This document shows positions 412 to 24,907 of a DNA stretch of 64,000 nt, piece after piece. The notes beneath the pieces are model-generated. The model was not told the origin of the DNA. It saw only the letters and a list, made by a program, of their open reading frames with translations, and did no database searches. The position numbers were made by a program, and so were the translations under genes. Position 1 is the stretch's first letter. Each line of letters begins with the position of its first letter. The stretch comes from Methanoregula sp. (GTDB taxonomy: Archaea; Halobacteriota; Methanomicrobia; Methanomicrobiales; Methanospirillaceae), in contig JAUYTV010000009.1 in assembly GCA_030694985.1 (NCBI GenBank), forward strand, positions 1-64,000, in the 5' to 3' direction.

Positions 412-3400
412 TCAAAGGTGACCGGATACCGGACATTGCCCGGCAAACCGATACTTCCCTTCAGGCACGGATATCTCAAACCGTGCCCCTTTTCCGTAAA
501 CACCGGTCTCTTTAATCGTGCTGCCAGTGATGGAGAGGATCTCTCTTACCAGGAAAAGTCCAAGGCCGGTATTCTTTCCAACGCCACGCTCGAAGATCTT
601 CTCCTTCTCTGCTGCCGGAACCCCACTACCGTTGTCCTCGACAATCACCAGAATCCTGTCCGGCTCCCGCTCACAGCGAATAGTGATCTCCGTTATCCGG
701 TCGCCATGCCGGATCGCATTATCAAAGAGGTTGAAAAAGACCCGTTCCAGCATCGGGTCGGTAAACACCTCGACTCCCCTGCAGGTGCTGGAGAACTTTA
801 CCGGTACCCGGCTTTCAACATTGGCGATGACCTCCTCAACCGAGATCCAGACCGGCGCTTTCACCCCCAGTTCCTGGTACGTCCGGGTGAACTCGATCTG
901 GCGGGCAATAGTGTCTGCAGCAGTAAGGATCTTGGCAAGGTAATCTGCAATGACCGGGTCGCCTTTTTTCATAGCGGCGATCTGGGCAAAGCCCTGCAGG
1001 ATGGTGAGCTGGTTGGCAACATCATGCCGGGTGATGCTGTTTAAGAGATTGAGTTTGTGGTTGGCTTCGATGACCGCCTGCTCTGCATTTCGCCGTTCCG
1101 TGATATCTTCAAGGGTTTCAACGGCTCCTATAATGGTTCCCTGGGTATCCCTGATGGGGGCGGCAGTAAAATTCAGCCATTTTCCTGATGCACCCATGGT
1201 AGGGAAGAAGTCAGTTGCTTCATAGGCGCCCTCAACCAGCCGGGAACTTCTGAATTTTCCACCATACAATTTTGGAATCTCATCGTTTTTTTCATCCACA
1301 AGAAGATCTGCAAGCACCGGTCGTTTTTGTGGATAGAACGCCCGCCACTGTTGATCGGTTCCAACGATATCTTCAGCCTTAATCCCGCTGTAAACCTCTA
1401 TCGCCTTGTTCCAGGAGATGACCTTATGGTTCCGATCAATAACAAACTGGAGCACCGGTGACCCTTGCAGGATCGAACTTAACCGGGCTTCGCTCTCGCA
1501 CAATGCATCCTGCGTAATCCGGCGTTTACTTATATCCCGGCAAAGGGTGAGAATCCGCACTGCATCACCGTATGGTAAGACCGTGGCATTGATCTCAATG
1601 GGGATGATAGTGCCAGAGTCATTGACATAATCTATCTCAAGATTACGAATGTACCCGTCCCTTATGCACTGACTGACCGCTACTGCATTCTTATCTTTCT
1701 CGTACTCAGCAGTCCACTCGATCACGCTCCTGCCGGCAATCTGCCCGAGGTTCCTATGTCCGCTCAGGCGAATGTACTCCGGGTTCGCATCCAGCACCAG
1801 ACCCTGATCGTCAATGATCACAAAACCGGTGCCGGTTGTCTCGACAAGCGTGCGGTATTTCTCCTCACTCTCGTGCTGTGCCTCTTCGGCAAGTTTCTGC
1901 CCGCTGATATCACGGAGGTGCTCAATGATGAACTGAATATCTCCCGAATCATCAAGAACCGGATAGCTCCTCACATCAAGCCACGCATTAATTTCCTGTA
2001 CATATTTCTGCACCATAGCCGGTTTTTTGGTACGGTATGTTTCAGAGGTTGCACAGATCTCGCAGGGTGCATCATGACCGATCAGTTCAAAGCATCTCTT
2101 TCCCGCCACTTCACCGTGGTTTTTCCCTACCATCGCATACCCTGCGGCATTGTACCTGATGATCCCGTGGTGAAGATCCTGTACCCCGAGCACATCCGGA
2201 ATTGCATTGAACAAGGTCTCCAGCATCGCACTCTTCTCCCGTAGCGCTGCCTCACTGTTCCGTATCGCCTCTTCGGCAAGCTTCCGCTGCGTGATGTCGA
2301 GCAGTACACCGCTGTATACCAGTTCCCCTTGCCGGGCAACAGGACGCGATATTCCCTGGAACCAGATCTTCTCACCGGATGGTTTGATGAACCTGCCCTC
2401 AAAATTCCATGGCTGACCTGCTTTGACTACCTCAATAATAGACTGGAGAAACGCCTCGCGGTCACGGGGATCCACGTATTCGGTAAACCAGGCGAAAAAG
2501 TCCTGTGTTGTGTTGTCGAGCCCGAAGACCTCCCCGGCACGGCTGCTGACATAGTAAACCCCCATGCTTCCATCCGGCCGGGCATAGAACTGGTAGACAA
2601 CGCCCGGTACCGTGCTGGCTATCTCCTCGAGCTGCTCCTGGCTCTTCTGCAGGTTTCCCTGTACCGCAACCAGCTCATCAAACTGGCCCCTGAGCTCTTC
2701 TTCAGATGCTGTGAGCTGTTCGTGGGCAGACCGGAGTTCTTCTTCTGCCCTCTTGCGTTCGGTAATATCAAAGAAAGCCGCCGCCATCGCACCAGGCCGG
2801 ATCTGGAATGCCGAAACGGAGAATGCCCCGTGGATCGTCCCCTTATCATAAATCACCTGGTCGGTATTCCATGAGTCCCCCGTCCGGGCTACCATACGGT
2901 ACTTATCGGGAACTTCCGTGTCTACAAGCCCTGGGAAGGCCTCTTCAATAGTCCGGCCGATAAACTGACTGTTGTCAACACCAAGGATCGCATCAGCCGC
3001 AGGGTTTGAACCGGTAAAAACGAGTGAGCCATCATCATGAAGTTCATAGAAATGCATGCCAAACGGGGAGAACTCTATGACGTTCCGGTATTTTTCCTCG
3101 CTCTCCCGCAATGCTTCTTCTGCCTTCTTCCGCTCGGTAATATCTTCAATTACCCCATCGAAATATTCAATCTCACCATTTGGACCGCGAACCGCTATTG
3201 CCGAGAGACTTGCCCAGAACAGTTCCCCGGTTTTCTTTTTCATCTGGACCTCGACATTTGCCAACTTGCCCTCGTGTAGCAGCCGATCAGATAAGATTTT
3301 TCTCATTGCAGCGTCAGCATAATTGTCTGCAACCGGAGTCTGCATGAACTCCTCAATAGAGTCAAAACCATGCATACTGGCAATGATCGGGTTTACCATG

Positions 3401-5118
3401 ATCCTCCTTCCGGACGGACCGGGAGTTGTACGGAATAACCCTGCCGGCAGGTTTTGCATGAAGTTCGTCTGCTTTGCCTGCTGCTCGAGGAGAGTATTTT
3501 CCATTCGTTTGCGATCGGTGATATCAAGAGCAGTAAAGGTCACACCGGCTGCATGGTTCTCCGGATCCAGCGGGGTTGAACTGAGCAGGATATCTCTGAT
3601 ATCCCCGTCTTTTTGCTGCCAGCGGGTCTCAACAGTCCCGGTGCCGGATTTTTGGATCTGTTCATATTTATCCTGGCCCACGCGTTCAAACTCTTCATCA
3701 TCGGAATAAAGGATGCGGGCACTCTTACCAATCAGTTCCCCTGCTGAATATCCGGTCATCTCACAGAGCCGGTCGTTGGCCCTAAGCAGGACGCGGTTCG
3801 AGACCAGCCCGATCCCGACCGGCGCTGCCCGGAAGATGCTGGCAAGCGTTGCCTCACTTTCGTGGAGTGCGTTTTCTGCTTTCTTTCTGTCAGATATATC
3901 GATAACTATTCCCCGGAAGCCAGTCAGGTCCCCGTTTTTATACACAGGATCGGAATAGATGAGGGCCGTAAATGTGCTGCCATCCTTTCTCTTTAACGTA
4001 AATTCCGGGGACTCATAGGGCTCTCTGTTGATAATTTTCCTGATATTTTCCCTGATACAGGAATGCTGCAAGGGATCAACCACCGACAGAGCATTGAATC
4101 CCTGTGCCACATCATCGGGTGTATATCCTAAAGCGATGTATCCCTGCCGGTTCACAAACGTGATAATAAGATTACGGTCCATCTCAAAGACAATCTGGGG
4201 AAGGAGCTCAGCAAGTTCACGGTATTTCGCCTCGCTCTCGGCCTGCAAAACGAGCTGTTCGCGGAGTTCCCCCTCACTTGCCGTGATCTGCTCGCACGCA
4301 GCCTGTAGTTCATCTTCTGCCCTCTTTTGTTCGGTTATGTCGCGAATGGCTTCAATCGCACCGACAACCTCACCCTGGCTGTTATAAAGAGGACTGGCCT
4401 TACCAACGAGCGTAACCTCCCTGCCCTGAAGGCGGGGCAGGTTGGTGTCGGCAATCAGGACATCCTTTTGCCGGATGATATTTGAGTATTTCTGTTCAAT
4501 GACTTCAGAAGGTTCAAAGATCAGGTCAATAAGAATTGGCCGCCGTTCACCATAGAAGGGAAGGGCGTACTCGTGATCCCCTTTCCCAAGCATCATTTCA
4601 GCAGACAGCCCGGTCATCTCATCGATCGCACGGTTCCAGGCAATGATCACTCCTTCACGGTTTATGGCAAAGGTTGCATCCGGGAGAAAGTTGATGATAT
4701 CAGCAAGGCGCTTCTCAGATTCCCTGAGAGAGTGCTCCGCCTGCCTCCGTGCCAGGGCCTGCCGGATCTTGTGCGAGAGTTCAGCAAACTGTGGTTTGAC
4801 ATCTCCTCCTTTCTGGAGATAGAAGTCTGCTCCGTTGTTGATGGCCTCAATCACGACATCTTCACGGCCACGCCCGGTGAAGAGAATGAACGGGATATCC
4901 CCAAACCGCTCGCGGACGATCTTTAAAAATGCAATCCCGTCCATCTCCGGCATCTGGTAATCCGATACAATGACGTCATAGGATGGAAATGCTGGAGATG
5001 CGAGCGCATCGATTGCCGATAATGCTACATCTACCCGGAATTCCAGAGTTCGTTCTAAGAAGAGCTTGCCCAATTCGAGGAGGGCCGGTTCGTCATCAAC
5101 GTATAGTACGGAAAACAT
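412..5118 (-). CDS. Receiver-(PAS)9-histidine kinase, 1568 aa
   Basis: A soluble multi-sensor signalling protein. Residues 1-125 form a receiver domain with the acidic pair D8/D9 and a likely phospho-acceptor D53 in VSDYQMPEMDG. Nine PAS units follow; most start with an SExxxR/L-type helix and close with a DITxRKxAE-type linker. The seventh PAS contains a CxxxxxxxxxxCxxC cluster that could bind a metal, haem or iron-sulfur group. The C-terminal transmitter has an archaeal-type H-box (SITRHDVANQL, H1365), an N-box (NLFDNAIRHG), a G1 box (DNGSGVP) and a G2 box (GLGLFL). No membrane segments are evident, so it should sense cytoplasmic signals. No separate response regulator lies beside it; output may go through its own receiver or a distant partner. 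The start ATG at 5118 puts the receiver exactly at the N-terminus. The ligands are unknown. Confidence 0.93.
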   Translation of the reverse strand: MFSVLYVDDEPALLELGKLFLERTLEFRVDVALSAIDALASPAFPSYDVIVSDYQMPEMDGIAFLKIVRERFGDIPFILFTGRGREDVVIEAINNGADFYLQKGGDVKPQFAELSHKIRQALARRQAEHSLRESEKRLADIINFLPDATFAINREGVIIAWNRAIDEMTGLSAEMMLGKGDHEYALPFYGERRPILIDLIFEPSEVIEQKYSNIIRQKDVLIADTNLPRLQGREVTLVGKASPLYNSQGEVVGAIEAIRDITEQKRAEDELQAACEQITASEGELREQLVLQAESEAKYRELAELLPQIVFEMDRNLIITFVNRQGYIALGYTPDDVAQGFNALSVVDPLQHSCIRENIRKIINREPYESPEFTLKRKDGSTFTALIYSDPVYKNGDLTGFRGIVIDISDRKKAENALHESEATLASIFRAAPVGIGLVSNRVLLRANDRLCEMTGYSAGELIGKSARILYSDDEEFERVGQDKYEQIQKSGTGTVETRWQQKDGDIRDILLSSTPLDPENHAAGVTFTALDITDRKRMENTLLEQQAKQTNFMQNLPAGLFRTTPGPSGRRIMVNPIIASMHGFDSIEEFMQTPVADNYADAAMRKILSDRLLHEGKLANVEVQMKKKTGELFWASLSAIAVRGPNGEIEYFDGVIEDITERKKAEEALRESEEKYRNVIEFSPFGMHFYELHDDGSLVFTGSNPAADAILGVDNSQFIGRTIEEAFPGLVDTEVPDKYRMVARTGDSWNTDQVIYDKGTIHGAFSVSAFQIRPGAMAAAFFDITERKRAEEELRSAHEQLTASEEELRGQFDELVAVQGNLQKSQEQLEEIASTVPGVVYQFYARPDGSMGVYYVSSRAGEVFGLDNTTQDFFAWFTEYVDPRDREAFLQSIIEVVKAGQPWNFEGRFIKPSGEKIWFQGISRPVARQGELVYSGVLLDITQRKLAEEAIRNSEAALREKSAMLETLFNAIPDVLGVQDLHHGIIRYNAAGYAMVGKNHGEVAGKRCFELIGHDAPCEICATSETYRTKKPAMVQKYVQEINAWLDVRSYPVLDDSGDIQFIIEHLRDISGQKLAEEAQHESEEKYRTLVETTGTGFVIIDDQGLVLDANPEYIRLSGHRNLGQIAGRSVIEWTAEYEKDKNAVAVSQCIRDGYIRNLEIDYVNDSGTIIPIEINATVLPYGDAVRILTLCRDISKRRITQDALCESEARLSSILQGSPVLQFVIDRNHKVISWNKAIEVYSGIKAEDIVGTDQQWRAFYPQKRPVLADLLVDEKNDEIPKLYGGKFRSSRLVEGAYEATDFFPTMGASGKWLNFTAAPIRDTQGTIIGAVETLEDITERRNAEQAVIEANHKLNLLNSITRHDVANQLTILQGFAQIAAMKKGDPVIADYLAKILTAADTIARQIEFTRTYQELGVKAPVWISVEEVIANVESRVPVKFSSTCRGVEVFTDPMLERVFFNLFDNAIRHGDRITEITIRCEREPDRILVIVEDNGSGVPAAEKEKIFERGVGKNTGLGLFLVREILSITGSTIKETGVYGKGARFEISVPEGKYRFAGQCPVSGHL

Positions 5119-6363: not shown

Positions 6364-7032
6364 TTACCTGATCCATCCCATCCGCACCCACCGCTCGTAC
6401 TCTTCTGTGCGGAAATCACGGTTCCCGATTACGAGATCTTTGAAAAATTCCCGGTTGCCGGTAATCTCTTCTTCCTGCGCTGGATCAGAAAAGCCATTCC
6501 TGATCGCATCTGCGAGTTTTTTCCCGAGCGCCCGTGCGGAAATTTCCGCTGCATCAAAAGTTTCTGCATTCCCACCCGTTGCAACACTTAAGCCACCCAC
6601 CGCAATCACGCCAAGATAATTCAGCACATGGTTCTGGTATGCCACCACCTCATCGCCTCCAGACGTGTGCGTTGTCGCAACCGAGCAGCCATATTTCCCT
6701 GCAAGCAGCTGGTAGTGAATTGCATCCGCAAGCCGGTCAAAGAAAATTTTCATCTGGCCAGATACATTATCAATGTAAACCGGTGAGGCAAACACAATAC
6801 CGTATGCTTCCTTCATCCGCTCAAAAACCAACGGGACATCATCGTCATTAACACATACACCATTGAGCGAGCAGGCATCGCAGGCAGTGCAGGGCATGAC
6901 CCGCAAGTCACAGAGATCGAGCATCTCGGTCTCTGACCCGGCTTCTGCTGCTCCTTCAAGTACAAAGCCGGCAAGTCTTCGCGTTGTGCTGCGAGTGGTG
7001 AGGGGACTCCCGTGTATGGCGAGGATTTTCAT
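6364..7032 (-). CDS. Iron-sulfur flavoprotein (NADPH-dependent FMN reductase fold)
   Basis: A flavodoxin-fold protein of 222 aa. The N-terminus MKILAIHGSPLTT is the FMN-phosphate loop of the NADPH-dependent FMN reductase family. Residues 48-60 hold the compact motif C48-x2-C51-x2-C54-x5-C60, which is the 4Fe-4S signature of methanogen iron-sulfur flavoproteins (Isf). Isf proteins carry electrons between ferredoxin and acceptors such as oxygen or peroxide. FASPVYIDNVSGQMKIFFDR is the usual dimer/flavin segment. I placed the start at 7032 because a longer reading would add 21 residues before the flavin loop that match nothing. It is a single gene, and its proximity to rubrerythrin fits an oxidative-stress role, although the two genes are convergent and not co-transcribed. 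Confidence 0.88.
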   Translation of the reverse strand: MKILAIHGSPLTTRSTTRRLAGFVLEGAAEAGSETEMLDLCDLRVMPCTACDACSLNGVCVNDDDVPLVFERMKEAYGIVFASPVYIDNVSGQMKIFFDRLADAIHYQLLAGKYGCSVATTHTSGGDEVVAYQNHVLNYLGVIAVGGLSVATGGNAETFDAAEISARALGKKLADAIRNGFSDPAQEEEITGNREFFKDLVIGNRDFRTEEYERWVRMGWIR

Positions 7033-7152
7033 GGTATTGTGGCTCCGGGTAAAGAGAATAGGGTGGCGGGGATTATTATGCCAGTGGATGGACATGACCC
7101 TGGATAGTCATAGGTATTTCAGGGGGAAAAACACCGGATTTCTCTGTTTTAT

Positions 7153-7242
7153 CCGTTGGAGATTTGCGATTTTTTTGTCACAGTCACTTCCGGATTGCAA
7201 AACCCCCTTTGAAACCTGCGGGAGTTTGTGTCATTTTCACGG
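7153..7242. repeat. Imperfect direct repeat, left copy, flanking vapBC
   Basis: About 90 bp matching 8060-8146 in the same orientation. Identical runs include GTCACAGTCACT, TTGAAACCTGC and GGAGTTTGTG, with small substitutions and a 3-bp length difference between copies. The two copies bracket the VapBC module and nothing else. No protein-coding potential is shared between the copies. Confidence 0.75.
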
Positions 7243-7273
7243 GTCAGCCAAAACCCGCTAAATTGGCCGGCCG

Positions 7274-7669
7274 TTATCCATGCAACCGCACGATCCCGTC
7301 AACCTTGTCGAAGTCCGAATCGAACGAAAGAATCCGGTTAATATTCTTCGTATCCATGACTGCAACAGAGACTGCATCCGATACGGACAGGGTCCCGTCA
7401 TACCGCAGGAAAACCGCCATACCCCTCTTTAAGATCTGCTCATCAGCAAATACGATTTCACAGTTGTCAATAAAATAATGATAGAGCCGCTCCCCGGCTT
7501 TCCCACCGCTGCGCCGGCCTATGATCGTCACGGATTCAGAAAGGATCAGATCTGATATCACGACCTTCTCTCCGACAATTGAGGGCAATAGGCTCTTTCC
7601 CTTTTCATGCCACTGATCCTGCCGGTCCGCAAGCGCGATGAAAAAAGATGAATCGGCAAGGATCATCAT
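7274..7669 (-). CDS. vapC: VapC-type PIN-domain ribonuclease toxin
   Basis: A PIN-domain endoribonuclease of 131 aa, the toxin of a type II module. The acidic metal-binding residues expected of the fold are visible: D6 in ILADSSFF, E45 in ILSES, D98 in SVSDAVSVAVM and D117/D119 in SFDSDF. Length is normal for VapC. It is translationally coupled to the antitoxin: its ATG at 7669 overlaps the antitoxin TGA (ATGA). A second in-frame ATG follows immediately. The family cleaves tRNA or rRNA and is inhibited by the partner; the RNA target here cannot be read from sequence. The module sits between two imperfect 90-bp direct repeats. Confidence 0.92.
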   Translation of the reverse strand: MMILADSSFFIALADRQDQWHEKGKSLLPSIVGEKVVISDLILSESVTIIGRRSGGKAGERLYHYFIDNCEIVFADEQILKRGMAVFLRYDGTLSVSDAVSVAVMDTKNINRILSFDSDFDKVDGIVRLHG

Positions 7670-7890
7670 TCACCGGACTGGGCCCGCTTCTTTTCGCTCA
7701 CGGAATCCCCGCCAACACTGATCATGCCGCAGATTCCGTCAAGCGTCTCTTTTTTGCGGGGATGAATCGTGATGACTCCCTCCCGGACGTCCCACAAGAG
7801 TGTATCGCCCGGCCCGAGATCCAGCAGTTTCCGGATCTCTGCCGGGAGAACAGTCGAGTTTCCATCAGATATTTTTGTTTTACTTGCCAT
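7666..7890 (-). CDS. vapB: VapB-type AbrB/SpoVT antitoxin
   Basis: A 74-aa DNA-binding antitoxin. The N-terminal half reads as a SpoVT/AbrB swapped-hairpin domain (TKISDGNSTVLPAEIRKLLD, then LGPGDTLLW), and the acidic/basic tail after residue 45 should bind VapC. I chose the ATG at 7890: AAGGAAG lies six bases upstream, whereas the ATG two codons earlier abuts that site. The stop overlaps the vapC start. A palindrome in the promoter (7920-7940) is a likely autoregulatory operator. No frame damage is visible, so the pair looks intact. Confidence 0.9.
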   Translation of the reverse strand: MASKTKISDGNSTVLPAEIRKLLDLGPGDTLLWDVREGVITIHPRKKETLDGICGMISVGGDSVSEKKRAQSGE

Positions 7891-7901
7891 ACGCATCTTC
7901 C

Positions 7902-7940
7902 TTAGTAATACCTGTTCACTTAGTAAACATATATTACTAA
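7902..7940. promoter_or_regulatory. Probable vapBC operator/promoter
   Basis: Positions 7920-7940 read TTAGTAA, seven bases (ACATATA), TTACTAA: a perfect 7-bp inverted repeat whose spacer is TATA-like. A further half-site TTAGTAAT lies at 7902-7909, between the palindrome and the vapB start. AbrB-type antitoxins normally repress their own promoter through such sites; that this is the bound sequence is inference. Confidence 0.6.
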
Positions 7941-8059
7941 TAAATATTGGGGGCGAAGGGGCTCCTGCCTATATGAGAAGGCTTTGCAGATAGTATGAGA
8001 AATCAACTTTGTTAAGTATCTTCAGTTCAGATCGAAAATCCTCACTTTAAAAAAAAATT

Positions 8060-8146
8060 CCATCGGAGATCTGCGATGTCGGTCACAGTCACTCAAGGAT
8101 GGCAAAAAACCCTTGAAACCTGCTGGAGTTTGTGCCATTTTTCCGG
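8060..8146. repeat. Imperfect direct repeat, right copy, flanking vapBC
   Basis: The partner of 7153-7242. It lies between the vapBC promoter and the methyltransferase gene. The rest of 7941-8193 holds no gene that I can see, only AT-rich sequence near the promoter and an A-tract just before this copy. Confidence 0.75.
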
Positions 8147-8193
8147 AACAACCGTTGGGCGCCCTTGGTTATATTGCATGAGGCTGCTGCGGC

Positions 8194-8883
8194 TCATTTC
8201 TGCCGGGCGTGGGTAATTCTTAACATCTCGTGCCCGTTTTTTAAGAAATCATAACGGGTCGGTTCGATCCGGACCACAAGACCGGATGCCCGGACCCGGT
8301 CCATGAGTTCATCAAAATACTCCGCCCGCTGGCCGTTTGTGTCCACAACGGGAAAAATCCTCACCTCTTCTGAGACCCTTGCCATCTCATGGATTGACTG
8401 CAGATGAAAGGTGAGCCCGAGCGAACTGTACAAAAAGAGGAGATGGGAACAGAGACAAAGGTCAAAGTGCCGGTTGCGGAACGGGAGAGCAGGAAGCGTT
8501 GCCGGAATATAACGGCCTTGAAAAAGACCGGCCTTGTAATCTTTGCAAAACTCCTGCATAGCGCTCATCCGCACCTGCTCAAGCTCATCAGGTGTGCGGA
8601 TGGTCTTCCAGACAAAATTCTGCATATTATTTTTAACCTGCTGCATCACTTCATCGCGGGCTGCAAGGATCGCCTGCTCGATCTGGTTGGAGGAATACAT
8701 GTACAGCGGATCACAAGACACAACATAATGCCCCTGTTCATGCATACGGGCATTGAAACCCGCAGGACCGTCCCCGCACCCGATAATGGACCGTTTTAAA
8801 TCATCAGCAGAGAGGTTGAACATCGCCACATACTCGTCAAACGATCTTCCCCAGGGAACAACTGATTTCAGGATAAAGGTCAT
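8194..8883 (-). CDS. SAM-dependent methyltransferase-like protein
   Basis: A 229-aa protein with the outline of a class I methyltransferase: a glycine-rich motif I (IIGCGDGPAGFNA, about residues 33-46), an acidic motif II (VVSCDPLYMYS), a helical insert of about 60 residues, then a motif IV/post-I region (FDLCLCSHLLFLYS) and the C-terminal strand region (VRIFPVVDTNG). The motif I GCGDGP resembles class I enzymes annotated as type 11. The substrate is unknown. It stands alone with an ATG at 8883, and a spacer of about 200 bp separates it from the ABC exporter on the same strand. Confidence is good for the fold and nil for the substrate. Confidence 0.75.
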   Translation of the reverse strand: MTFILKSVVPWGRSFDEYVAMFNLSADDLKRSIIGCGDGPAGFNARMHEQGHYVVSCDPLYMYSSNQIEQAILAARDEVMQQVKNNMQNFVWKTIRTPDELEQVRMSAMQEFCKDYKAGLFQGRYIPATLPALPFRNRHFDLCLCSHLLFLYSSLGLTFHLQSIHEMARVSEEVRIFPVVDTNGQRAEYFDELMDRVRASGLVVRIEPTRYDFLKNGHEMLRITHARQK

Positions 8884-9081
8884 GCCTGATTACGTGTTGG
8901 GCGCCATGGATTAATAGAAATACGGGAGATAATATGCCTATTTTTTCCAATTCTCAATGGAGCTTTTTTTTAAAAGTCGGACCCCACGGGTAGCAGCCCC
9001 CACGGGGAAATTGCCGTGCGGTTATTTTGCAGGTTTAAAAAAACAGGATTATGGATATCACCCCACTGCAATTCTGGGGGC

Positions 9082-10875
9082 TCACTCCATTACGATTCCC
9101 GACAGCTTCCCACGGAACTGGCTCATGTAGAGATCAAAGTAGAATCCTTTCTTCATCATCAGCTCTGTGTGTGAGCCACGCTCAATGATTGCACCTTTGT
9201 CGATGACAAGGATCTGGTCAGCGTGCCGGATAGTCGAGAGCCGGTGGGCGATGATGAACGAGGTCTTGTCCTTCTGGAGCGCAAGCAGCCCCTCCTGGAT
9301 CAGTTTTTCTGTCCGGGTGTCCACGTTGCTTGTTGCTTCGTCAAGGATGAGCATGCGGGGGTTTGCCACGATCGCACGGGCAATCGTGAGCATCTGCCGC
9401 TGGCCCTGGGATAAGTTTGTCCCGCCATCGACAAGGATGGTTTGGTACCCTTTCGGTTGCTGGAGGATGAAATCATGGGCATTTGCCTGCCGGGCTGCCT
9501 GCACACATTCCTCGTCTGTTGCCGATTCGCGGGCATACTTCAGGTTTGCCATTATCGTATCAGAGAAGAGGAACGGTTCCTGCTGCACCTGCGCGATCTG
9601 GATCCTGAGCGTATCCTGCTTTACTTCCCGCACGTCATTGCCATCAATGCGGATCGCCCCGTTCTCGATATCATAGTACCGGGTTAAGATATTGATGATC
9701 GTGCTCTTGCCGGCACCTGTCGGGCCGCAGAGCCCAAAAACCTGCCCCGGGCGGGCATGGAACGTGTTGTCCGTCAGGATCCGCCGCTCCGGAATATATG
9801 AAAAGTCCACGTGGTCAAAGATCACATCCCCGTCAACTGCCGGCATTGCCGGTGCATTTTTCCGGTCATCCACACCGGGCTTCTGGTCCAGGACTTCAAA
9901 GACGCGGGATGCTCCCACGATCGCATTCAGGATCTGGGCATACGATGAGAAGATGGTAGTAAATGCGCCAAGCAGGCTGAACGAAAAACCGATGAATGCA
10001 ATCAGGGTACCTATCTCAGCCATACCCTCCATCACCATAATTCCCCCGACAAGGAGGAGAATGACAATTACAATGGTGGTAAAGATGTTGGATACCTGCT
10101 GGCTGATGAGCGCAGAGAACTGGGCTTTTTCACCGATATCGGCAACCTTCCGGCTCATTGCAGAGAACCGCCGGGACGCTGCTTCTTGCTGGCGGCAGGC
10201 AATCACGGTCTTTGAGCCGGAGATCCACTCCTCGGCAAACCCGTTTAAGTCCCCGGTCTTTTCCTGCAGCAGCACAAACGCAGGGCCGGATGTTTTTGTT
10301 ATCAGCCACGAGGCTCCGACAAGAGCAAGAACTACAATATAAGAAAGGATTGTTAAGGACTGGTTGACAAGCAGCATGACAATGCTGGTGATGATGATAG
10401 TCATGATCGCCTGGCCGGTCTGGAGCGAGCCGATGCTGATGAACTGCTCGATCACCTGGGTGTCATTTGTCACCCGGCTCATCAGTTCTCCGATCGGGCG
10501 ACGGTCAAAGAAGCCCAGAGACATCTTCTGGATGTGAGAAAAGAGGTCAATGCGAAGCTGGTAGAGGGCATCTTGCGAGATGTTCGAGAGCAGCTTCTCA
10601 GAGATCGCTCCCGATATCCAGATAATTATTGCTCCTGCAAACAGCCAGATGATGATCTGGTATAATGGTCCAACCGGCCCTGGTCCGGCTGATATGATGT
10701 TGGTTGCAGCCCCCATCAGGAGGGAGAAGATCGCTTCGATCAGGGCAAATACTGCCATTAAGAAGATGACCAGAGCCAGTTTCAGTTTATGGGGACTCAT
10801 GTATCCCATGAACCGTTTCACTGTGGGGATCATTGACGGCAGGGAATCATCTTGCGGAACCTGCAGGGCCTTCAT
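9082..10875 (-). CDS. ABC exporter half-transporter, catalytic Walker B subunit
   Basis: A type IV (B-family) ABC exporter subunit of 597 aa: six transmembrane helices in residues 1-330, then a nucleotide-binding domain. Walker A is GPTGAGKST, the signature is LSQGQRQ and Walker B is LILDEATSNVD with the canonical catalytic glutamate. The signature departs from LSGGQ. The partner gene overlaps it by 4 bp and has the complementary defects, so the two form a heterodimer with one competent and one degenerate ATP site. It would export lipids, peptides or drugs; the substrate cannot be predicted. The ATG at 10875 lies inside the upstream partner gene, indicating translational coupling. Confidence 0.93.
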   Translation of the reverse strand: MKALQVPQDDSLPSMIPTVKRFMGYMSPHKLKLALVIFLMAVFALIEAIFSLLMGAATNIISAGPGPVGPLYQIIIWLFAGAIIIWISGAISEKLLSNISQDALYQLRIDLFSHIQKMSLGFFDRRPIGELMSRVTNDTQVIEQFISIGSLQTGQAIMTIIITSIVMLLVNQSLTILSYIVVLALVGASWLITKTSGPAFVLLQEKTGDLNGFAEEWISGSKTVIACRQQEAASRRFSAMSRKVADIGEKAQFSALISQQVSNIFTTIVIVILLLVGGIMVMEGMAEIGTLIAFIGFSFSLLGAFTTIFSSYAQILNAIVGASRVFEVLDQKPGVDDRKNAPAMPAVDGDVIFDHVDFSYIPERRILTDNTFHARPGQVFGLCGPTGAGKSTIINILTRYYDIENGAIRIDGNDVREVKQDTLRIQIAQVQQEPFLFSDTIMANLKYARESATDEECVQAARQANAHDFILQQPKGYQTILVDGGTNLSQGQRQMLTIARAIVANPRMLILDEATSNVDTRTEKLIQEGLLALQKDKTSFIIAHRLSTIRHADQILVIDKGAIIERGSHTELMMKKGFYFDLYMSQFRGKLSGIVME

Positions 10876-17033: not shown

Positions 17034-18566
17034 ATGGATATCTCGGATAATATCAGGGATATTGAAGAGACCGTTGGACGGTTATCGCGGGTACAGAAGA
17101 TCCTGCTTGGCACTGATGGCTCTGTTACGCAACTGCTGGAGTCGATCACGGGACACCCCGTTACGGTTAAGACGCTCGTGCAGGAGATTGTCCCCGCAGA
17201 TGCAGAGACCGCAGACCGGGTGGATGTTCGCGTGGGCGATCCGGTAAATCACCGTGTGGTCGAACTACGGGACAACGTGACAAACGAAATGCTGATCTAT
17301 GCGATATCCGAGACCCCGGTCGAGCGGTTGTCTCCTGCATTTAAAACCGACCTGTTGATGGCCGATATTCCAATCGGAAAGATCATAAAACAACATCATA
17401 TCGAGGCACGGCGCGAGATTATCTCTGCCCGTGTATCAGAAGCCACAAAAGAGACCCGCAGGATCTTCTCCATCTGCCCTCATGAACCCGTGCTCAGTCG
17501 CCAGTACCAGATCATCCACAACCACAAGCCCCTGATCTTCATCGAGGAGCAGTTCCCGTACAACCAGTTTCTTGATGAACGCAGGATCGTGGTCAACACC
17601 CCATCCCGGATCCATGTAAGCCTGATCGATATGCATGGCGGTTTAAGAAGAGTGGATGGCGGGATTGGTATCACGCTCGATGAACCGGCGATATTACTTG
17701 AAGCGCAGCAGAGCCCGGATATCCGTATAACTGGTTGCGATACTGCCACAAAGGAGCGGGTGAGCGGAATTGCTTTAGAGGTACTCCGGCAGATCCATGC
17801 CGGAGCCGGAGTTTCCATCACGGTTCGATCCCTCTACCCGGCTCATACCGGTCTTGGGAGCGGTTCGCAGCTGGCGCTTGCCACCGCCCGTGCGTGCTGC
17901 GAACTCTATGGCAAAAATCTGCCGGTGACAGAGCTTGCACAGATGGCAGGTCGTGGCGGCACATCAGGTATCGGGACAGCGGCCTTTGAATACGGGGGTT
18001 TCATCATCGATGGAGGACACCGTTTCGGGTCTGATGGTGATAAAAGAGATTTCAGGCCGTCATCGGCATCGCGGGGCATACATCCACCACCAGTCATCGC
18101 CCGCCATGACTTTCCAAAAGACTGGAAGATCCTGCTTGCCACACCGGACTTACCGGCAGGAGCGAGCGGGGCGATGGAGGCAGACATCTTCCGTAACCAC
18201 TGCCCGGTTTCCCTCAGTGAGGTGCAGGCGCTCTGTCACGAAGTGCTGATGCGGATGCTGCCCGGTATCGTGGAGCAGGATCTCGAAATGTTCGGCTCAT
18301 CGATCAACACGGTCCAGTCTCTCGGGTTCAAGAAAGTGGAGCTTGGCCTCCAGCCACCAGAAGTAACCGGGCTCCTTGAGGTTATGCGGTCTGCCGGGGC
18401 TGCCGGGGCGGGTATGAGTTCGTTTGGGCCAACCGTTTATGCAGTCGGGGAGTCCGGCATGAACGCGATCGGGCAGGCTGCACAGTCGTTCATGAAGGAG
18501 ACGGGAGGGGGTACTACGCTCATTACCACGGCCCGGAACAGCGGGGCGGTTATCCGGGTAGCGTAA
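17034..18566 (+). CDS. Chorismate lyase-like / RFAP (RFHP) synthase fusion, methanopterin biosynthesis
   Basis: A 510-aa two-domain protein. Residues 1-170 match the chorismate pyruvate-lyase-like DUF98 family (LLGTDGSVTQLLESITGHPV, then AISETPVERL and IGKIIKQHHIEARREI). Residues 183-510 match beta-ribofuranosylaminobenzene 5'-phosphate synthase, a GHMP-kinase-fold enzyme (TPSRIHVSLIDMHGGLRRVDGG; the glycine-rich YPAHTGLGSGSQLALA loop at 268-283; RGGTSGIGTAAFEYGGF). The second domain joins PRPP to a benzoate, releasing CO2, as the first committed arylation step of methanopterin. The first domain would make 4-hydroxybenzoate from chorismate, the substrate reported for methanogens. Fusion suggests channelling of the intermediate. 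In most methanogens the two are separate genes. Start ATG at 17034; the gene stands alone. Confidence 0.9.
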   Translation: MDISDNIRDIEETVGRLSRVQKILLGTDGSVTQLLESITGHPVTVKTLVQEIVPADAETADRVDVRVGDPVNHRVVELRDNVTNEMLIYAISETPVERLSPAFKTDLLMADIPIGKIIKQHHIEARREIISARVSEATKETRRIFSICPHEPVLSRQYQIIHNHKPLIFIEEQFPYNQFLDERRIVVNTPSRIHVSLIDMHGGLRRVDGGIGITLDEPAILLEAQQSPDIRITGCDTATKERVSGIALEVLRQIHAGAGVSITVRSLYPAHTGLGSGSQLALATARACCELYGKNLPVTELAQMAGRGGTSGIGTAAFEYGGFIIDGGHRFGSDGDKRDFRPSSASRGIHPPPVIARHDFPKDWKILLATPDLPAGASGAMEADIFRNHCPVSLSEVQALCHEVLMRMLPGIVEQDLEMFGSSINTVQSLGFKKVELGLQPPEVTGLLEVMRSAGAAGAGMSSFGPTVYAVGESGMNAIGQAAQSFMKETGGGTTLITTARNSGAVIRVA

Positions 18567-18627: not shown

Positions 18628-20202
18628 TCAGGCCGGGTTTACTTCTGCAAACCATTTCCTGATCACGAGCGAGGCTGGTTTTTCCCGTACAGAGGATGAT
18701 TTCTCAAATGAGTACTTCGGGTTGAACCCGGGCTCTATCCAGTAACCCCAGGTGTACACACCACCAAGCCACGGCTCATCACGGGTGGACTTAAAAAACG
18801 CCTCATAGAGGTCTGCCTGTCCGATGAGATCCTGTTGGACAGAGGGGGCAGTTGCCATGGGTTCAAACCAGGCCTGTGCTGCCGCATGATCCCGGCTCTG
18901 GAAGGGGAGCAGGAAGATGAGCGGTTTTTTGTACTTTGCGTACAGGGGATCGAACTGCTTCCGGTTGAACCTGTCCATAGCCGCTTCAAGCTCCGGAAGG
19001 GACGGTCGTTCCTGATCCGAGAACCGGTTATAATAGTATATCGTGATGACATCGAGATCGTCTGCCCACGGAACCTGCGAGGCATGATCTGACCATTCAC
19101 TGGTAAAGAGCACCTGCGTCAGCTTCCCGTGATACACAGTCCGTACATTGGCAATCAGCTTACGCCACCGCTGTTCGTTGGCCGGGATCATTGCCCCATC
19201 GATCTGTTTCCCGAGCGCGAGCATCTCGATATTGTGCTTCTCTGCGATCTGCGCAGATTTCTGCATGAAAGATCCGAACTGTACAAACCAGCGATCCCAG
19301 TACGCATTGGCTTCCGGGTCGGAGGGGTTCTTTGAGAGCCGATCGGCCATCTCCTGCACGGTCTTTTGGCCCTGCGTCCACTTGTTCTCCTGGTATTTCA
19401 TGTACGCATCGTTGTCGGTCGATGGATACTCACCCGGCATGACGGTCCACTCAAGCTCCGTATATAGTGTAAATTTCAGTCCGCGCTTGTGGGCGGCGTC
19501 AGCCATCAACCCGATCGAGCTTTCATCCGCAGCACCCCAGAGCCCGACTGCTGCCTCATCAACGATCTCAGGAGCAGATGTATTTGCGTACGCCCAGTAA
19601 TAGTCATACGCAACCCACTCTCCGCCATCCTCTTTCATCGCATCGTACGTGTTCCAGAGATTGCCGGACTTAGCTGCGGCTGGAATATTTCCACCGCCAT
19701 CCATGATCGCGTGGCCTTTCTGGAATTGCGGCTTACGGACCATTGGGGTGTCCGTCCATGGGGCACCGGCTCTCAGCGAAGTGTTCGCAGAAAGGGTTTT
19801 TACCATATCCGCAGTGACCTTCCCCCCGGAAGAGAACGAGTACCGGATCTCGTCACCGGCCGTAATCCCGATACCGTTGTGCCGGTAGTAATAATCCGTA
19901 ACTTTCTCCATGGGGTACTGCTGCCCGTTGAGCGTGAGGGTTACCGGTTCCTTCGTAGCCGGGACCGAGGCTTCGACCGGGACAAAAAGCCGCGTCCCGG
20001 TTGCTACAGCAGGCACTTTTCCGTACTCCGGCTGCTGCGCAAAGGGTAGCGAGCTGATCCCCGGCGTTTGTCCCGGTACGGGGCACCACGGGGGCTGCGG
20101 CCACGGGCCGGCCGGTGGGCAGAAGCCAACCGCCGCCATGCCGATCGTTCCGACAACAATAACGGCGATCAGTAAAAGGATGATCTTTACTGCAACATGC
20201 AT
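18628..20202 (-). CDS. Secreted TIM-barrel glycoside hydrolase-like protein
   Basis: A 524-aa protein exported by a single N-terminal hydrophobic segment (HVAVKIILLLIAVIVVGTIG), followed by a Pro-rich linker and a beta-rich segment (60-130). The main part (from about 150) has the alternating strands and helices of a TIM barrel with motifs such as AADESSIGLMADAAHKRGLK, YTELEW, DDLDVITIYYYNRFSD and GGVYTWGYW. This is reminiscent of GH113-like or related glycosidase barrels. I cannot assign catalytic residues with certainty. It ends with a conserved SLVIRKWF-type helix. I place the start at the ATG at 20202; a GTG five codons upstream is possible. It probably acts at the cell surface on polysaccharide. 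Confidence 0.6.
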   Translation of the reverse strand: MHVAVKIILLLIAVIVVGTIGMAAVGFCPPAGPWPQPPWCPVPGQTPGISSLPFAQQPEYGKVPAVATGTRLFVPVEASVPATKEPVTLTLNGQQYPMEKVTDYYYRHNGIGITAGDEIRYSFSSGGKVTADMVKTLSANTSLRAGAPWTDTPMVRKPQFQKGHAIMDGGGNIPAAAKSGNLWNTYDAMKEDGGEWVAYDYYWAYANTSAPEIVDEAAVGLWGAADESSIGLMADAAHKRGLKFTLYTELEWTVMPGEYPSTDNDAYMKYQENKWTQGQKTVQEMADRLSKNPSDPEANAYWDRWFVQFGSFMQKSAQIAEKHNIEMLALGKQIDGAMIPANEQRWRKLIANVRTVYHGKLTQVLFTSEWSDHASQVPWADDLDVITIYYYNRFSDQERPSLPELEAAMDRFNRKQFDPLYAKYKKPLIFLLPFQSRDHAAAQAWFEPMATAPSVQQDLIGQADLYEAFFKSTRDEPWLGGVYTWGYWIEPGFNPKYSFEKSSSVREKPASLVIRKWFAEVNPA

Positions 20203-20246
20203 GGAGAAGACCTGCACTTCGTTAAAATAAATGAATTGTGATCGGT

Positions 20247-21137
20247 TTATTTCCCGATCTTGACCAGCATCTCTTCAAGCGACGGGTACCGGGAATCTAT
20301 CTTCTCAACCTTGCCTCCCGCTTCACCGATAAGGCCGGTACATTCGTTGAGCTCTGCCATATTTTCCGCATCACACACAAAGAGTCCCTCTTCCTGCCTG
20401 TAGGTTTTGGAGTGCCCGATGAGTGCCCCTGCATCCTTAATTGAGAAGAAGATCGCGTACGTAAGAGTGCCAAACTGCTCGCGCAGCTCTTTCATGGTGC
20501 CAAAGGCCACCACCTTCCCGCGCTTTAAGATCATCACCTTGTCACAGATCGCTTCCACCTGGTAGAGGTTATGCGCCGAGAGAACGATCGTCTTTCCCTC
20601 CTTTTTTAACGTGCGCAGGTAATCGGCAATGAACCGTGAGGTCATCGGGTCAAGACCGCTTGTGGCTTCATCATAGACAAGGAAACCGGGTTCATGGATA
20701 AGCGACCGGGCGATCGCTGTTTTGCGCTTCATCCCTTTTGAGAACTCTCCCAGTTTTTTGCCATCCGTTTCGAGCGAGAGCGCGGCAAAGAGCTGGTTCG
20801 ACCGGATGCGGATCTCCTGCGGGGAGAGCCCGTAAATCTCGCCAAAGAATGCGAGATAGTTCTCGGCAGTCATCGTCTCGTAGAGCCGGGATTCCTCAGG
20901 AAGGTACCCCAGATTCTCTTTAAGCGCAACCGGGTTTTTCACCACATCGATATCATTGATAAAAAGTTCTCCTGATGTGGGGGCAATCAGTCCCGAAATG
21001 ATCTTGAGCAGCGTGGTCTTGCCGGCCCCATTGTGCCCGATAATCCCGAAGATCTCACCGTCTTCAAACTCGAAGCTGACACCGTCCAGTGCCATAAAAC
21101 CATCAAAGTTTTTTAAGATATTGCGGCCGGTTATCAT
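20247..21137 (-). CDS. ABC transporter ATP-binding protein (ABC-2 type)
   Basis: A 296-aa cytoplasmic ATPase. Walker A is GHNGAGKTT at 34-42, the Q-loop region is NLGYLPEESRLYETMTAENY, the signature is FSKGMKRKTAIA (a KGM-type signature common in ABC-2 importers/exporters) and Walker B is FLVYDEATSGLDP. A C-terminal extension (210-296) is a regulatory or dimer region. It is transcribed divergently from two permease genes starting at 21433 and 23235; by family habit these three make one ABC-2 transporter. ATG at 21137. The substrate is unknown. Confidence 0.92.
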   Translation of the reverse strand: MITGRNILKNFDGFMALDGVSFEFEDGEIFGIIGHNGAGKTTLLKIISGLIAPTSGELFINDIDVVKNPVALKENLGYLPEESRLYETMTAENYLAFFGEIYGLSPQEIRIRSNQLFAALSLETDGKKLGEFSKGMKRKTAIARSLIHEPGFLVYDEATSGLDPMTSRFIADYLRTLKKEGKTIVLSAHNLYQVEAICDKVMILKRGKVVAFGTMKELREQFGTLTYAIFFSIKDAGALIGHSKTYRQEEGLFVCDAENMAELNECTGLIGEAGGKVEKIDSRYPSLEEMLVKIGK

Positions 21138-21329
21138 GCGTGACTGCCTTTTTAATCAAATGTGTGTGGAATCAAAGATATAGATTGGGATGGGGGCACC
21201 TGGTAGTGAAACTGGTGTTTGATGCCCCACAGACTTTTTTATTTTTAAACCGGTGGAACAATGGAGATTTTTTAGTTGCGGTTCTCCCTCTTTATGAGCG
21301 CGCAAACCGGAATTATCCTGTCAGCACCG

Positions 21330-21359
21330 AGTACTATTTGAACGATACCAAATACTACT
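21330..21359. promoter_or_regulatory. Inverted repeat upstream of the ABC-2 permease genes
   Basis: AGTACTATTTG (21330-21340), eight bases, then CAAATACTACT (21349-21359); the arms match at 10 of 11 positions. It lies 74 bp upstream of the first permease ATG and about 190 bp from the divergent ATPase start. It could be a repressor site, or a hairpin if transcribed. No other structure is visible in 21138-21432. Confidence 0.45.
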
Positions 21360-21432
21360 CTGTACTAAAACTTCCGCTGGTGTAACTGTATCTTTGCATT
21401 GCAGGAGAACCATTAAGGAGCCATACAAAAAC

Positions 21433-23238
21433 ATGGGCAGGCTTACCGACATCTTGACCATCGCGCGATGGGAAGTAAAGAAATCCTTTACCATGATGAG
21501 CCGGGAGGTACTGCCGTTTGCCGTTATTCTCTTCGTGCTGCTGGTAGCAGTTACCGGGTTTGCTGCCCAGAGCGGTATGCACTTGCAGGATGGCATGTAT
21601 GAAGTGGGCGTGGATGATCCACAGATTGCAGAGTTGATCGCAAGCGATGCCCGGTTCTCAGTGTACCAGACGGATGCGGCCACTCTTGGAAAGAACCGGA
21701 ATGCATTTGATTTAGTCATCATTAACGGGCAGTTGTATAACAGCCAGACAGAACGGGCAAAAGCGGCACAGAAAACACTCGAACGCGATTATGCCAAATA
21801 CGTCAACACAGTCTACAACCGGGAGACGGATCTCTTTGCCGCATACCCGCTCTGGATCGATGTGCAGACCGTAAAAAGCGAACTCACCTTCTTATCCACC
21901 CAGTCAGGCCAGTATGTTCAGGCAGCTCCCAGCCGAAAAGCACCGGTGCCTGAAGGAGAGATAAGCAATGTCCCCACACCTTCACCCGCACTGGATTTTA
22001 CCAAAGAGGAACTAAGGCAGGAACTGGTTAAGACCAATGCAAAGAACACCCAGATCTCGCGCTACACTGAAGTCCTCTCTTCTGAAAGCACGATGGGCCG
22101 GTTCAAGACCCCGTCACAGCTCTCGCCTCCGCTGCCGTTTGATTCGATCATCCTTGTCTTTGTCTTCATCTTCCCGCTCTACTTTACCTCGCAGTTCTTC
22201 ATGATGAGCATCATGAACGAGCGCATTGAACGCAAAGGCGAAGTCCTGCTCTCAACACCTGTTGCATCCTCTTCAATCATCCTTGGAAAGATGATTCCCT
22301 ATTTCATCGGGATGGTTGCCATCTGTGCCGCGCTCACGCTCTACGTACGGGCGCCACTGATCATCATTCTCCCCCTCATACCGGTCATCATATTCTTCCT
22401 TGCAAATGCGCTCCTGATAGGCATGCTCTCGCGCAGTTTTAAAGAACTCTCGTTCATCTCGATCTTCTTCTCGACAGTTGCTACCTCGTACCTGTTCTTT
22501 CCCAGCATCTTTGCAAACGTGCACGTCATCTCCCTCATATCCCCGCTGACGCTGATCGTCCTCTCGGTACAAGGCGCTCCCTGGACGGTCACCGACTACC
22601 TCTACTCCACTTCCCTCTTCTGGCTGACCGGAGCGGTGCTCTTCTATATCGGGATGAAGAACTTCAAAGAAGAGCGGCTCTTTTCAGAAAAACGGCTCCT
22701 GCCACGGTTCCGCGAGTTCCTCTCAGAGATCATGAACCGCCAGCACCCGTTTCTCTCTGTCTTTTTACTGACCGGGTTTACCATACCGTTTGTGTTCATG
22801 GTGCAGCTGATGAGCCTCACGCTCTTTTTTAACCTGCCCATGCCGTATTCACTTGTACTGCTCCTCATCTTTGCCGCACTGGTTGAGGAATGTGCAAAAG
22901 CAATCGGTATCTATACCCTCTTTGCCCAGGATCCGTCTTTTCTCACATGGAAGAACCTGCTCGCTGCCTGCGCTGCAACCGCTATCGGATTTCTGGTTGC
23001 TGAGAAACTGCTCCTCTTCATCACGCTGGCCCAGATCAGCGAATCGATCTTTGGCAGTATCCTTTTCCTGTCGTTAGGGGTACTCTGGATGCCGCTGCTC
23101 CTGCACTTTGTTGGTGTGCTAATCGTTGCGTGTTCGCTGAAGTTCTGGGGCAGAAAGGGTTTGGTTATCGGGATTGTGCTTGCCACTGTGGTACACTGCC
23201 TGTATAACCTCTACTTTATCCTGGGGTGGATTGGATGA
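21433..23238 (+). CDS. ABC-2 permease fused to a PrsW-type intramembrane protease domain
   Basis: A 601-aa membrane protein. Residues 1-400 are an ABC-2-type permease: an N-terminal cytosolic and TM region (WEVKKSFTMM, then a helix at about 25-45), a large extracellular domain (to about 235), then five to six helices including NERIERKGEVLLSTPVAS, the coupling-helix segment of the family. Residues 435-601 carry additional helices with E485-E486-x2-K489 (LVEECAK) and H588-x3-N592 (VVHCLYN), the catalytic signature of PrsW glutamic-type intramembrane proteases. I start at the ATG at 21433, preceded by AAGGAG. The C-terminal TGA overlaps the start of the second permease. Such a fusion suggests that transport and membrane proteolysis are coupled. 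Confidence 0.8.
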   Translation: MGRLTDILTIARWEVKKSFTMMSREVLPFAVILFVLLVAVTGFAAQSGMHLQDGMYEVGVDDPQIAELIASDARFSVYQTDAATLGKNRNAFDLVIINGQLYNSQTERAKAAQKTLERDYAKYVNTVYNRETDLFAAYPLWIDVQTVKSELTFLSTQSGQYVQAAPSRKAPVPEGEISNVPTPSPALDFTKEELRQELVKTNAKNTQISRYTEVLSSESTMGRFKTPSQLSPPLPFDSIILVFVFIFPLYFTSQFFMMSIMNERIERKGEVLLSTPVASSSIILGKMIPYFIGMVAICAALTLYVRAPLIIILPLIPVIIFFLANALLIGMLSRSFKELSFISIFFSTVATSYLFFPSIFANVHVISLISPLTLIVLSVQGAPWTVTDYLYSTSLFWLTGAVLFYIGMKNFKEERLFSEKRLLPRFREFLSEIMNRQHPFLSVFLLTGFTIPFVFMVQLMSLTLFFNLPMPYSLVLLLIFAALVEECAKAIGIYTLFAQDPSFLTWKNLLAACAATAIGFLVAEKLLLFITLAQISESIFGSILFLSLGVLWMPLLLHFVGVLIVACSLKFWGRKGLVIGIVLATVVHCLYNLYFILGWIG

Positions 23239-24314
23239 AAGCACGTCACTTGTCAATCATTGCAAAGAAAGAATTCCGGGGACTGTTCAATGAGCGCACG
23301 ATCCTGCTTGCCATCCTGCTCCAGCTCTTCATTGCCATGTTCTCATCGTTTCTCATGGTCGGGCTCACCTCCATGTACGATCCCTCCTCGCTCTCCAAGT
23401 ATTCGCGGCATAAGTACAACATCGCCTATGCAGGCAATGATTCAGCAGTGCTTAAATATCTCGAGAGCAGCCCGGACTTCCGGGTCTACTCTATGGATCT
23501 CTCTACCGGGGTTGCCGCGTTAAAAGAGCGAAAACTTTCAGCGGTGATCTACGTACCCGATACCTCCCCGGCAGCAGAAGAGCCGGTCAAGATCACGCTC
23601 TATACGCTTACTAATGATCTCCAGAGTGCGATTGTCGATGTGAAACTCAAGGATATTTTCTTGAAATACGAAAAGGATCTTCGTCTGATACGCGTAGACC
23701 GGCTCAGTGAACTACCGATCCCGATACAGGTCCCAAAAACCACCGGGGGCGGGGACTTCTACGAGTTCGTGTATGGGCTCTTGATTCCCCTGCTGGTCTT
23801 TATGCCGGCGATCATTGCATCCGCACTTGTCATTGATCTGATCACCGAGGAGTACCAGCATGAGACCTTAGAGACCCTGATCTCAACTCCGGTTACTTTC
23901 TCTGAGATGGTCTGGGGAAAAGTGCTGGCCTGTGAACTGCTGGTGCCGATCCAGGCCGGGGCGTGGCTGCTGCTCTTAATGGTTAATGGCATTGCGATCG
24001 AAAACGCCGGGCTGATCCTGCTGCAGGTTGTGGTCACCTCACTGATCCTGATCCTGCTTGGCGCCCTCACTGCGCTACACTACCGCGAGCGGACGGCAGC
24101 ACAGTTCATCTTTTCCACTGCACTCGTGGTAGTAATTCTCTTTGTACTGGCACTGCCCTCAAACCCGCTCAACATCCTCACCCGGCTTGCGGTCGGTACA
24201 GCCGGTCCAGAGCAATGGCTGGTACTTGCGGCAACCGGGGGTATCATCATTATTCTTGGGTACCTGACCCAGAAATATGCCGAAAAAGTCGGGAAATCGC
24301 ATCATACGGGATGA
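23235..24314 (+). CDS. ABC-2 type permease, second subunit
   Basis: A 359-aa integral membrane protein. The N-terminal helix lies after KEFRGLFNERTILLA, followed by a large extracellular domain of about 130 residues, then five helices from about residue 175. ITEEYQHETLETLISTPVTF is the typical ABC-2 coupling segment (compare NERIERKGEVLLSTPVAS in the first subunit). ATG at 23235 overlaps the first permease's TGA. It presumably heterodimerises with the upstream permease and is energised by the divergent ATPase. It lacks the EExxK/HxxxN protease motifs. Confidence 0.88.
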   Translation: MKARHLSIIAKKEFRGLFNERTILLAILLQLFIAMFSSFLMVGLTSMYDPSSLSKYSRHKYNIAYAGNDSAVLKYLESSPDFRVYSMDLSTGVAALKERKLSAVIYVPDTSPAAEEPVKITLYTLTNDLQSAIVDVKLKDIFLKYEKDLRLIRVDRLSELPIPIQVPKTTGGGDFYEFVYGLLIPLLVFMPAIIASALVIDLITEEYQHETLETLISTPVTFSEMVWGKVLACELLVPIQAGAWLLLLMVNGIAIENAGLILLQVVVTSLILILLGALTALHYRERTAAQFIFSTALVVVILFVLALPSNPLNILTRLAVGTAGPEQWLVLAATGGIIIILGYLTQKYAEKVGKSHHTG

Positions 24315-24430: not shown

Positions 24431-24907
24431 TTACATGGATGATGTGATCATCGGTTGATCAATGGCTTTGTAGGTTTTTCCTGCGGTGGTCACAAAGACC
24501 TCGACCCGGTCATTTCCCCTGCTTCCCTGTATCACCAGTTCATCTCCGCGCCGTGGTTTTCGCTGGCCGTCATTCAGGTACTGCTGTATGACCTGCCCAT
24601 CAGATCGGGTTACTCTCATCATAACATTCTGAACATAGATCTCTCCTTTCCCACCATTATAAAGCAGGCGAAGAGAAAAGTCAGGACGTTCCTTGGTTAG
24701 CTGGAGGTCAACAAACTGTTCAGGGGGCAGCGTATCAACTGCGATGGGAGTTGCCACAACCGTTGCAATGGAGGAAGTTACCGTAGAGGGAATTTGTGTT
24801 GGAATGTCCACAGGTTTGATCTCAGCCTGTGTGGGACTCGTGCAACCCGCTGAGAGCGCACAGAGCATGAGCACGAATGCGGTCAGCAGGAACAGGGTGC
24901 TTTTCAT
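24431..24907 (-). CDS. Predicted lipoprotein, unknown
   Basis: A 158-aa protein with a 21-residue signal segment ending in lipobox LSAGC (C22). A Thr/Pro/Ser-rich spacer of about 35 residues precedes a compact domain (60-150) containing LLYNGGKGEIYVQNVMMRV, which looks like an immunoglobulin-like or transthyretin-like strand pattern. I do not recognise the family. It would be attached to the outside of the cell membrane. It is convergent with the ABC permeases. Confidence 0.7.
   Translation of the reverse strand: MKSTLFLLTAFVLMLCALSAGCTSPTQAEIKPVDIPTQIPSTVTSSIATVVATPIAVDTLPPEQFVDLQLTKERPDFSLRLLYNGGKGEIYVQNVMMRVTRSDGQVIQQYLNDGQRKPRRGDELVIQGSRGNDRVEVFVTTAGKTYKAIDQPMITSSM

Follow-up and report, generated by a model that had tools for sequence, protein, structure and literature searches.

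A putative PrsW-type intramembrane protease domain joined to an ABC-2 permease in a conserved three-gene unit of Halobacteriota

The window, a stretch of 64,000 nucleotides from Methanoregula sp., contains a gene for an ABC-2 permease that continues at its C-terminus into a predicted PrsW-type intramembrane protease, flanked by the genes for an ABC transporter ATPase and a second permease. The following features were located:

20247..21137, minus strand: DrrA/NatA-like ABC transporter ATPase of 296 aa, transcribed divergently from the permease genes (PF00005, E 1.5e-28)
21138..21432: intergenic region that separates the ATPase gene from the divergent fusion gene (from the sequence)
21433..23238, plus strand: fused ABC-2 permease and PrsW-type intramembrane protease, 601 aa
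21511..22653, plus strand: ABC-2 permease half, residues 27-407 (PF12698, ABC2_membrane_3, E 6.9e-11)
22654..22746, plus strand: charged cytoplasmic linker, residues 408-438 (mean of 5.3 K/R per sequence; short helices in the model)
22747..23223, plus strand: PrsW domain, residues 439-597, with five predicted transmembrane helices (PF13367, hhalign, model and APH-1 matches)
22885..22899, plus strand: PrsW motif 1, E485-E486-x-x-K489, invariant in 114 of 114 homologues
22990..23007, plus strand: PrsW motif 2, F520xxxE524, then K525 (E524 and K525 conserved throughout, F520 replaced by Y in one)
23104..23106, plus strand: PrsW motif 3, H558, invariant but for one truncated contig
23194..23208, plus strand: PrsW motif 4, H588xxxN592, with D for N592 in a few homologues
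23226..24314, plus strand: second ABC-2 permease, protease-free (PF12698, E 3.8e-18)

The reading frame of the fusion extends from the ATG at 21433 to a TGA at 23236-23238. This start was favoured over the upstream TTG at 21394, the conserved start of the orthologues being MGxLxDIxTIARWE. The permease half comprises a large outside domain (residues ~48-235) and a cytoplasmic coupling segment (~262-286), and the orthologue alignment revealed a strong conservation of the segment NERxxRKGExLLSTPV. The ATPase presents a Walker A motif (GHNGAGKTT), a signature motif (FSKGMKRK) and a Walker B motif (LVYDEATSGLD). The second permease starts at GTG 23226 or at ATG 23235, which overlaps the stop codon of the fusion as ATGA. 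A Pfam scan found no protease domain in it, in agreement with the initial annotation, which had described this permease as lacking the PrsW motifs. Both promoters are presumably located in 21138..21432. With PF12698 in both permeases, PF00005 in the ATPase and a conserved gene set, the system has the composition of an ABC-2 exporter. Two further genes of the window encode multidomain proteins: a protein of 1568 aa that combines a receiver domain and a histidine-kinase-type ATPase domain with many PAS domains (412-5118, minus strand), and a single chain of chorismate-lyase-like (PF01947) and GHMP kinase domains (17034-18566, plus strand), likely a fusion around beta-RFAP synthase.

The initial annotation had read 21433-23238 as an ABC-2 permease with a C-terminal PrsW protease. 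Position and domain order were right, both halves being matched by Pfam, and the residues E485, E486, K489, H588 and N592 of the motifs EExxK and HxxxN had been numbered correctly. The motifs F520xxxE524 and H558 had been overlooked, thus four PrsW motifs are present and not two. PrsW of Bacillus subtilis carries E75E76xxK79, F110xxxE114, H138 and H175xxxD/N179 (PMC12943098). The spacing of motifs 1 and 2 is the same in the fusion and in this protein, 31 residues from lysine to phenylalanine. Conservation was followed in 114 homologues (92 aligned proteins and 22 more distant ones), all from the phylum Halobacteriota and ranging from Methanoregula to haloarchaea. Pairwise identity of the C-terminal domain is as low as 22 % among the 92 aligned homologues, with only 12 near-invariant positions, eight of which are motif residues. 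These eight were invariant in the aligned set except for one N592D exchange and one truncated contig. The genomes of the 22 additional proteins were picked with weight on weak profile matches, down to E 6e-28; all 22 retained the motif residues, with HxxxD in five and F520Y in one. The exchange of HxxxD and HxxxN in the fusions is the one that PrsW itself shows. Motif loss in orthologues, set beforehand as one of two tests of the assignment, was thus not seen in the 114 homologues. The second test, whether EExxK and HxxxN face each other in a predicted structure, was addressed indirectly by the model of the domain and its APH-1 matches (below). Motif 2 reads FxxxEK in all fusions versus FxxxEN in standalone archaeal PrsW proteins (L128-L157), a clean subfamily marker, and K525 in place of the asparagine perhaps has functional weight.

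Pfam places the C-terminal domain at the margin of the family. Scanned alone, it was matched by PF13367 with 27.3-27.9 bits against a gathering cut-off of 23.5, and in a six-frame scan of the genome the fusion was the sole PF13367 match (26.4 bits). No match to PF13367 was obtained with the full 601-aa chain or with a 174-aa cut, and at E 0.01 the model matched only 28 of 58 fusion domains. A profile-profile comparison (hhalign) of the fusion domains with 30 standalone archaeal PrsW proteins gave a probability of 94.9 % (P 4.8e-8) across 155 columns, and the motifs were in register. This agreement of motifs is partly selected, as the standalone set was chosen by the four-motif pattern; its members already score ~146 bits or more against PF13367. 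The controls reached 0.3 % (second permease) and 0.6 % (ABC half). The PrsW fold asked of the C-terminal region is supported by a confident AlphaFold2 model of residues 428-601 (pLDDT 88.3, pTM 0.83), which placed APH-1 first in the PDB: the top three Foldseek matches were chains of APH-1 from gamma-secretase (best probability 0.95, TM 0.54; weak by E-value, 0.45, above 0.001). This match supports a PrsW/Rce1/APH-1 fold and is not proof of it. The PrsW superfamily includes APH-1 and is structurally similar to the type II CAAX protease (PMC4602095). A sequence search of the PDB matched no chain, and the C-terminal domain retrieved nothing useful from viral structures in Foldseek. The full-length AlphaFold2 model was moderate (pLDDT 70.8), does not fix the placement of the permease relative to the protease and gave weak ABC matches only in Foldseek. 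Judged by motif, profile and fold, the C-terminal domain is a member of the PrsW family, though a divergent one. The architecture of an ABC-2 permease joined to a PrsW-type domain and the fold of this domain are very likely correct, and the domain is probably an active protease.

The distribution of charges indicates how the domain may be oriented. Averaged over 92 proteins, the linker 408-438 contains 5.3 K/R and the loops TM8-9 and TM10-11 2.4 each, compared with 0.03 in TM7-8, 0.04 in TM9-10 and 0.3 in the C-terminal tail. The motif residues were assigned to TM8 (E485/E486), TM9 (E524), TM10 (H558) and TM11 (H588/N592); from the charge topology and the helix limits of the model they lie at a similar predicted depth, in the middle to outer half of the membrane. 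Since the inside loops are K/R-rich, the outside loops almost K/R-free and the linker inside, we infer an active site in the outer half of the membrane.

The initial annotation had also proposed a survey of the recurrence of the fusion with the same partners. The fusion recurs with matching ATPase and second permease across the phylum (95 loci). The ATPase gene adjoins the fusion in 89 of the 95 loci; four of the six exceptions lie at contig ends, only L029 and L096 are real exceptions. The second permease follows downstream in 92 loci, and the three exceptions are all cut by contig ends. The divergent ATPase, which had been regarded as a feature of the system, did not hold as such: the gene points away from the fusion in methanogen loci, but in most haloarchaeal-type loci (a label taken from gene order and a named Haladaptatus record) the two run in the same direction, thus divergence is no part of the system. 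A fourth conserved gene was not found, no further family being present in more than eight of the 48 loci compared after removal of shadow ORFs. The unit consists of three genes: the ATPase, the fused permease-PrsW protein and the second permease. A protein with a GH113-like domain (18628-20217, minus strand) is encoded beside the ATPase and is so placed in few Methanoregula loci only. In L126, a 982-aa ORF (6986-9934, minus strand) has ~300 residues ahead of the fusion. These could stem from an open frame that continues upstream, or the ATPase region could be fused in as well.

A scan of genome contigs yielded 62 loci, by title all from Methanomicrobiales (Methanoregula, Methanoculleus, Methanospirillum, Methanocalculus, Methanomicrobium and others). 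Profile searches detected the fusion in 156 of 199 genomes of the class and in 216 of 392 genomes of the phylum Halobacteriota (81 of 136 genera). Both halves are in a single ORF in all 32 loci from families outside Methanomicrobiales and in the 22 more distant ones. The two halves diverged in parallel (Mantel r 0.95; 0.88 among non-Methanomicrobiales), which fits an old, vertical co-inheritance. The system is generally single-copy and widespread in the phylum. Many relatives have separate canonical PrsW proteins; the genome of the window has none. Near-complete Methanomicrobiales genomes without the system (G009, G022, G028, G037, G063, G071 and others, many of genus g25) would be useful for a comparison of losses. 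Spread as a toxin or on plasmids was rejected, as only one match was obtained among 72,556 plasmids, on a haloarchaeal megaplasmid. A link to archaeosortase (PF09721) was not supported: the genome of the window has the fusion without a PF09721 match, and G063, G064, G071 and several others have PF09721 without the fusion. As the PF09721 model performs weakly on archaea, this evidence is not strong.

A transporter and an intramembrane protease in one polypeptide with retained catalytic residues suggest that the two activities must be coupled. We propose that the system cuts membrane-embedded peptides and clears the products, a reading to which we assign a probability of about 0.45. The two permeases and the ATPase would form a heterodimeric ABC-2 exporter, with the PrsW bundle beside it and the active site in the outer membrane half. 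There PrsW would cleave hydrophobic or membrane-embedded peptides; candidate substrates are the leader or anchor segments that protein export leaves behind, or membrane segments that have misfolded. ATP-driven movement of the permeases may pull the substrate to the active site or expel the fragments. Such a role would resemble that of Eep/RasP with EcsAB/PptAB in Gram-positive bacteria, except that a single chain would unite protease and permease. In Staphylococcus aureus, the production and export of peptides derived from lipoprotein leaders requires Eep as well as EcsAB (PMC7157817), and in B. subtilis intramembrane proteolysis is inhibited when Ecs is lost (PMC2996298). This coupling is known in Gram-positive bacteria mainly from genetics (Ecs, RasP/Eep), and the fusion offers a single-protein model for it. 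The lack of a linked cargo gene and the generally single copy per genome favour a general pool of housekeeping substrates over one dedicated cargo; membrane-embedded peptides in general appear the likelier substrate, rather than one cargo or a sensor. A wider role, either in clearing the archaeal secretory pathway in general or as a missing protease of archaeal lipoprotein maturation, is a long shot. Exported proteins would then lose their leaders or anchors to PrsW acting from the outer side, and the ABC module fused to it would extract the remnants. Homologues of bacterial lipoprotein biogenesis components are not known in archaea (PMC12186497). Haloarchaea are genetically tractable, therefore the substrate question is directly testable.

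Alternatively, a specific peptide or small protein may be exported, with PrsW taking off the leader or anchor, the part played by C39 peptidases in bacteriocin exporters. Exporter-tied proteases are a known solution for peptide maturation, and a gene for a small secreted protein whose start resembles a lipobox (LSAGC) and which has no Pfam family (24431-24907, minus strand) is present just downstream of the system in ~30 Methanoregula-type loci. However, neither this gene nor any small candidate occurs near the system in other genera, no cargo gene was kept in the neighbourhood beyond the three genes, and a widespread, generally single-copy system is unlike most dedicated peptide systems. A dedicated cargo is thus unlikely. 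The ABC module might instead sense a compound or envelope stress and gate PrsW, which would cut a membrane-bound regulator in a regulated intramembrane proteolysis. ABC modules with sensing and signalling functions exist (BceAB type), and PrsW of B. subtilis is the site-1 protease for the anti-sigma factor RsiW (PMC4602095). But no regulator gene is conserved beside the unit in the 48 loci compared. Moreover, the known PrsW target cannot apply in archaea, which are not known to have bacterial sigma factors, and a signalling function appears rather improbable. The PrsW fold could also be non-catalytic, binding or holding transmembrane substrates for the exporter in the manner of APH-1 within gamma-secretase. 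APH-1, a non-proteolytic scaffold, is the closest solved fold, and where standalone PrsW has asparagine directly after the motif-2 glutamate, the fusion has K525. A scaffold is expected to lose some motifs, whereas all four were retained almost without exception in 114 proteins, the HxxxD/N exchange included; such a role is distinctly improbable. Chance motifs in an ordinary long permease can be dismissed: EExxK and HxxxN are short patterns that arise by chance and the full chain had no PF13367 match in a default scan, but the invariance across homologues, rather than motif odds, the profile-profile match and the fold rule this out.

Current annotation hides this probable protease, which is brought to light here: the RefSeq name of the Haladaptatus salinisoli orthologue is 'ABC transporter permease subunit', no NCBIfam model covers the permease-PrsW fusion, and no description of it was found in open-access papers. 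The domain shares with PrsW (PF13367; B. subtilis PrsW/YpdC) the four motifs, the helical register, a Pfam match above cut-off and a related fold. It differs by its position behind an ABC-2 permease, by FxxxEK instead of FxxxEN, by ~5 instead of ~8 helices and by a score of ~23-32 bits versus 90-160 bits for most standalone archaeal PrsW proteins. Other PrsW fusions are known. In PrsW-linked polymorphic toxins, a coupling of processing and export was likewise proposed, but PrsW is N-terminal to the toxin (PMC3482391), whereas the domain described here forms the C-terminus of a permease that has an ATPase partner, and a toxin is absent. The PrsW-PilZ protein LIC_20173 of Leptospira, also with catalytic motifs, has a partner domain of the cyclic-di-GMP-binding type (PMC12943098) and no transporter, in contrast to the fusion studied here. 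Eep/RasP and EcsAB/PptAB of Firmicutes likewise unite an intramembrane protease and an ABC exporter in one pathway (PMC7157817), but as separate proteins and with a site-2 metalloprotease (RseP/Eep) instead of PrsW in one chain. Among Pfam matches up to E 1, the permeases of the system had none to the EcsB family, thus the comparison with Ecs is by function only. Closest in design is ABC_perm_CPBP (NCBIfam NF041647), an ABC-2 permease with a C-terminal glutamic intramembrane protease of the Rce1/CPBP/PrsW group and a length of 636 versus 601 for the fusion. The fusion protein did not match this model (curated cut-off 435 bits), the second permease matched weakly and in the permease part only (47.9 bits), and no protein above the cut-off was present in a 60-genome sample of the phylum or in 14 control genomes. 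The fusion is thereby set apart from ABC_perm_CPBP as a different-family version, its protease being PrsW and not CPBP. The combination of an ABC-2 permease with an intramembrane protease is a known idea; new is a protease of a different family within the same wide superfamily.
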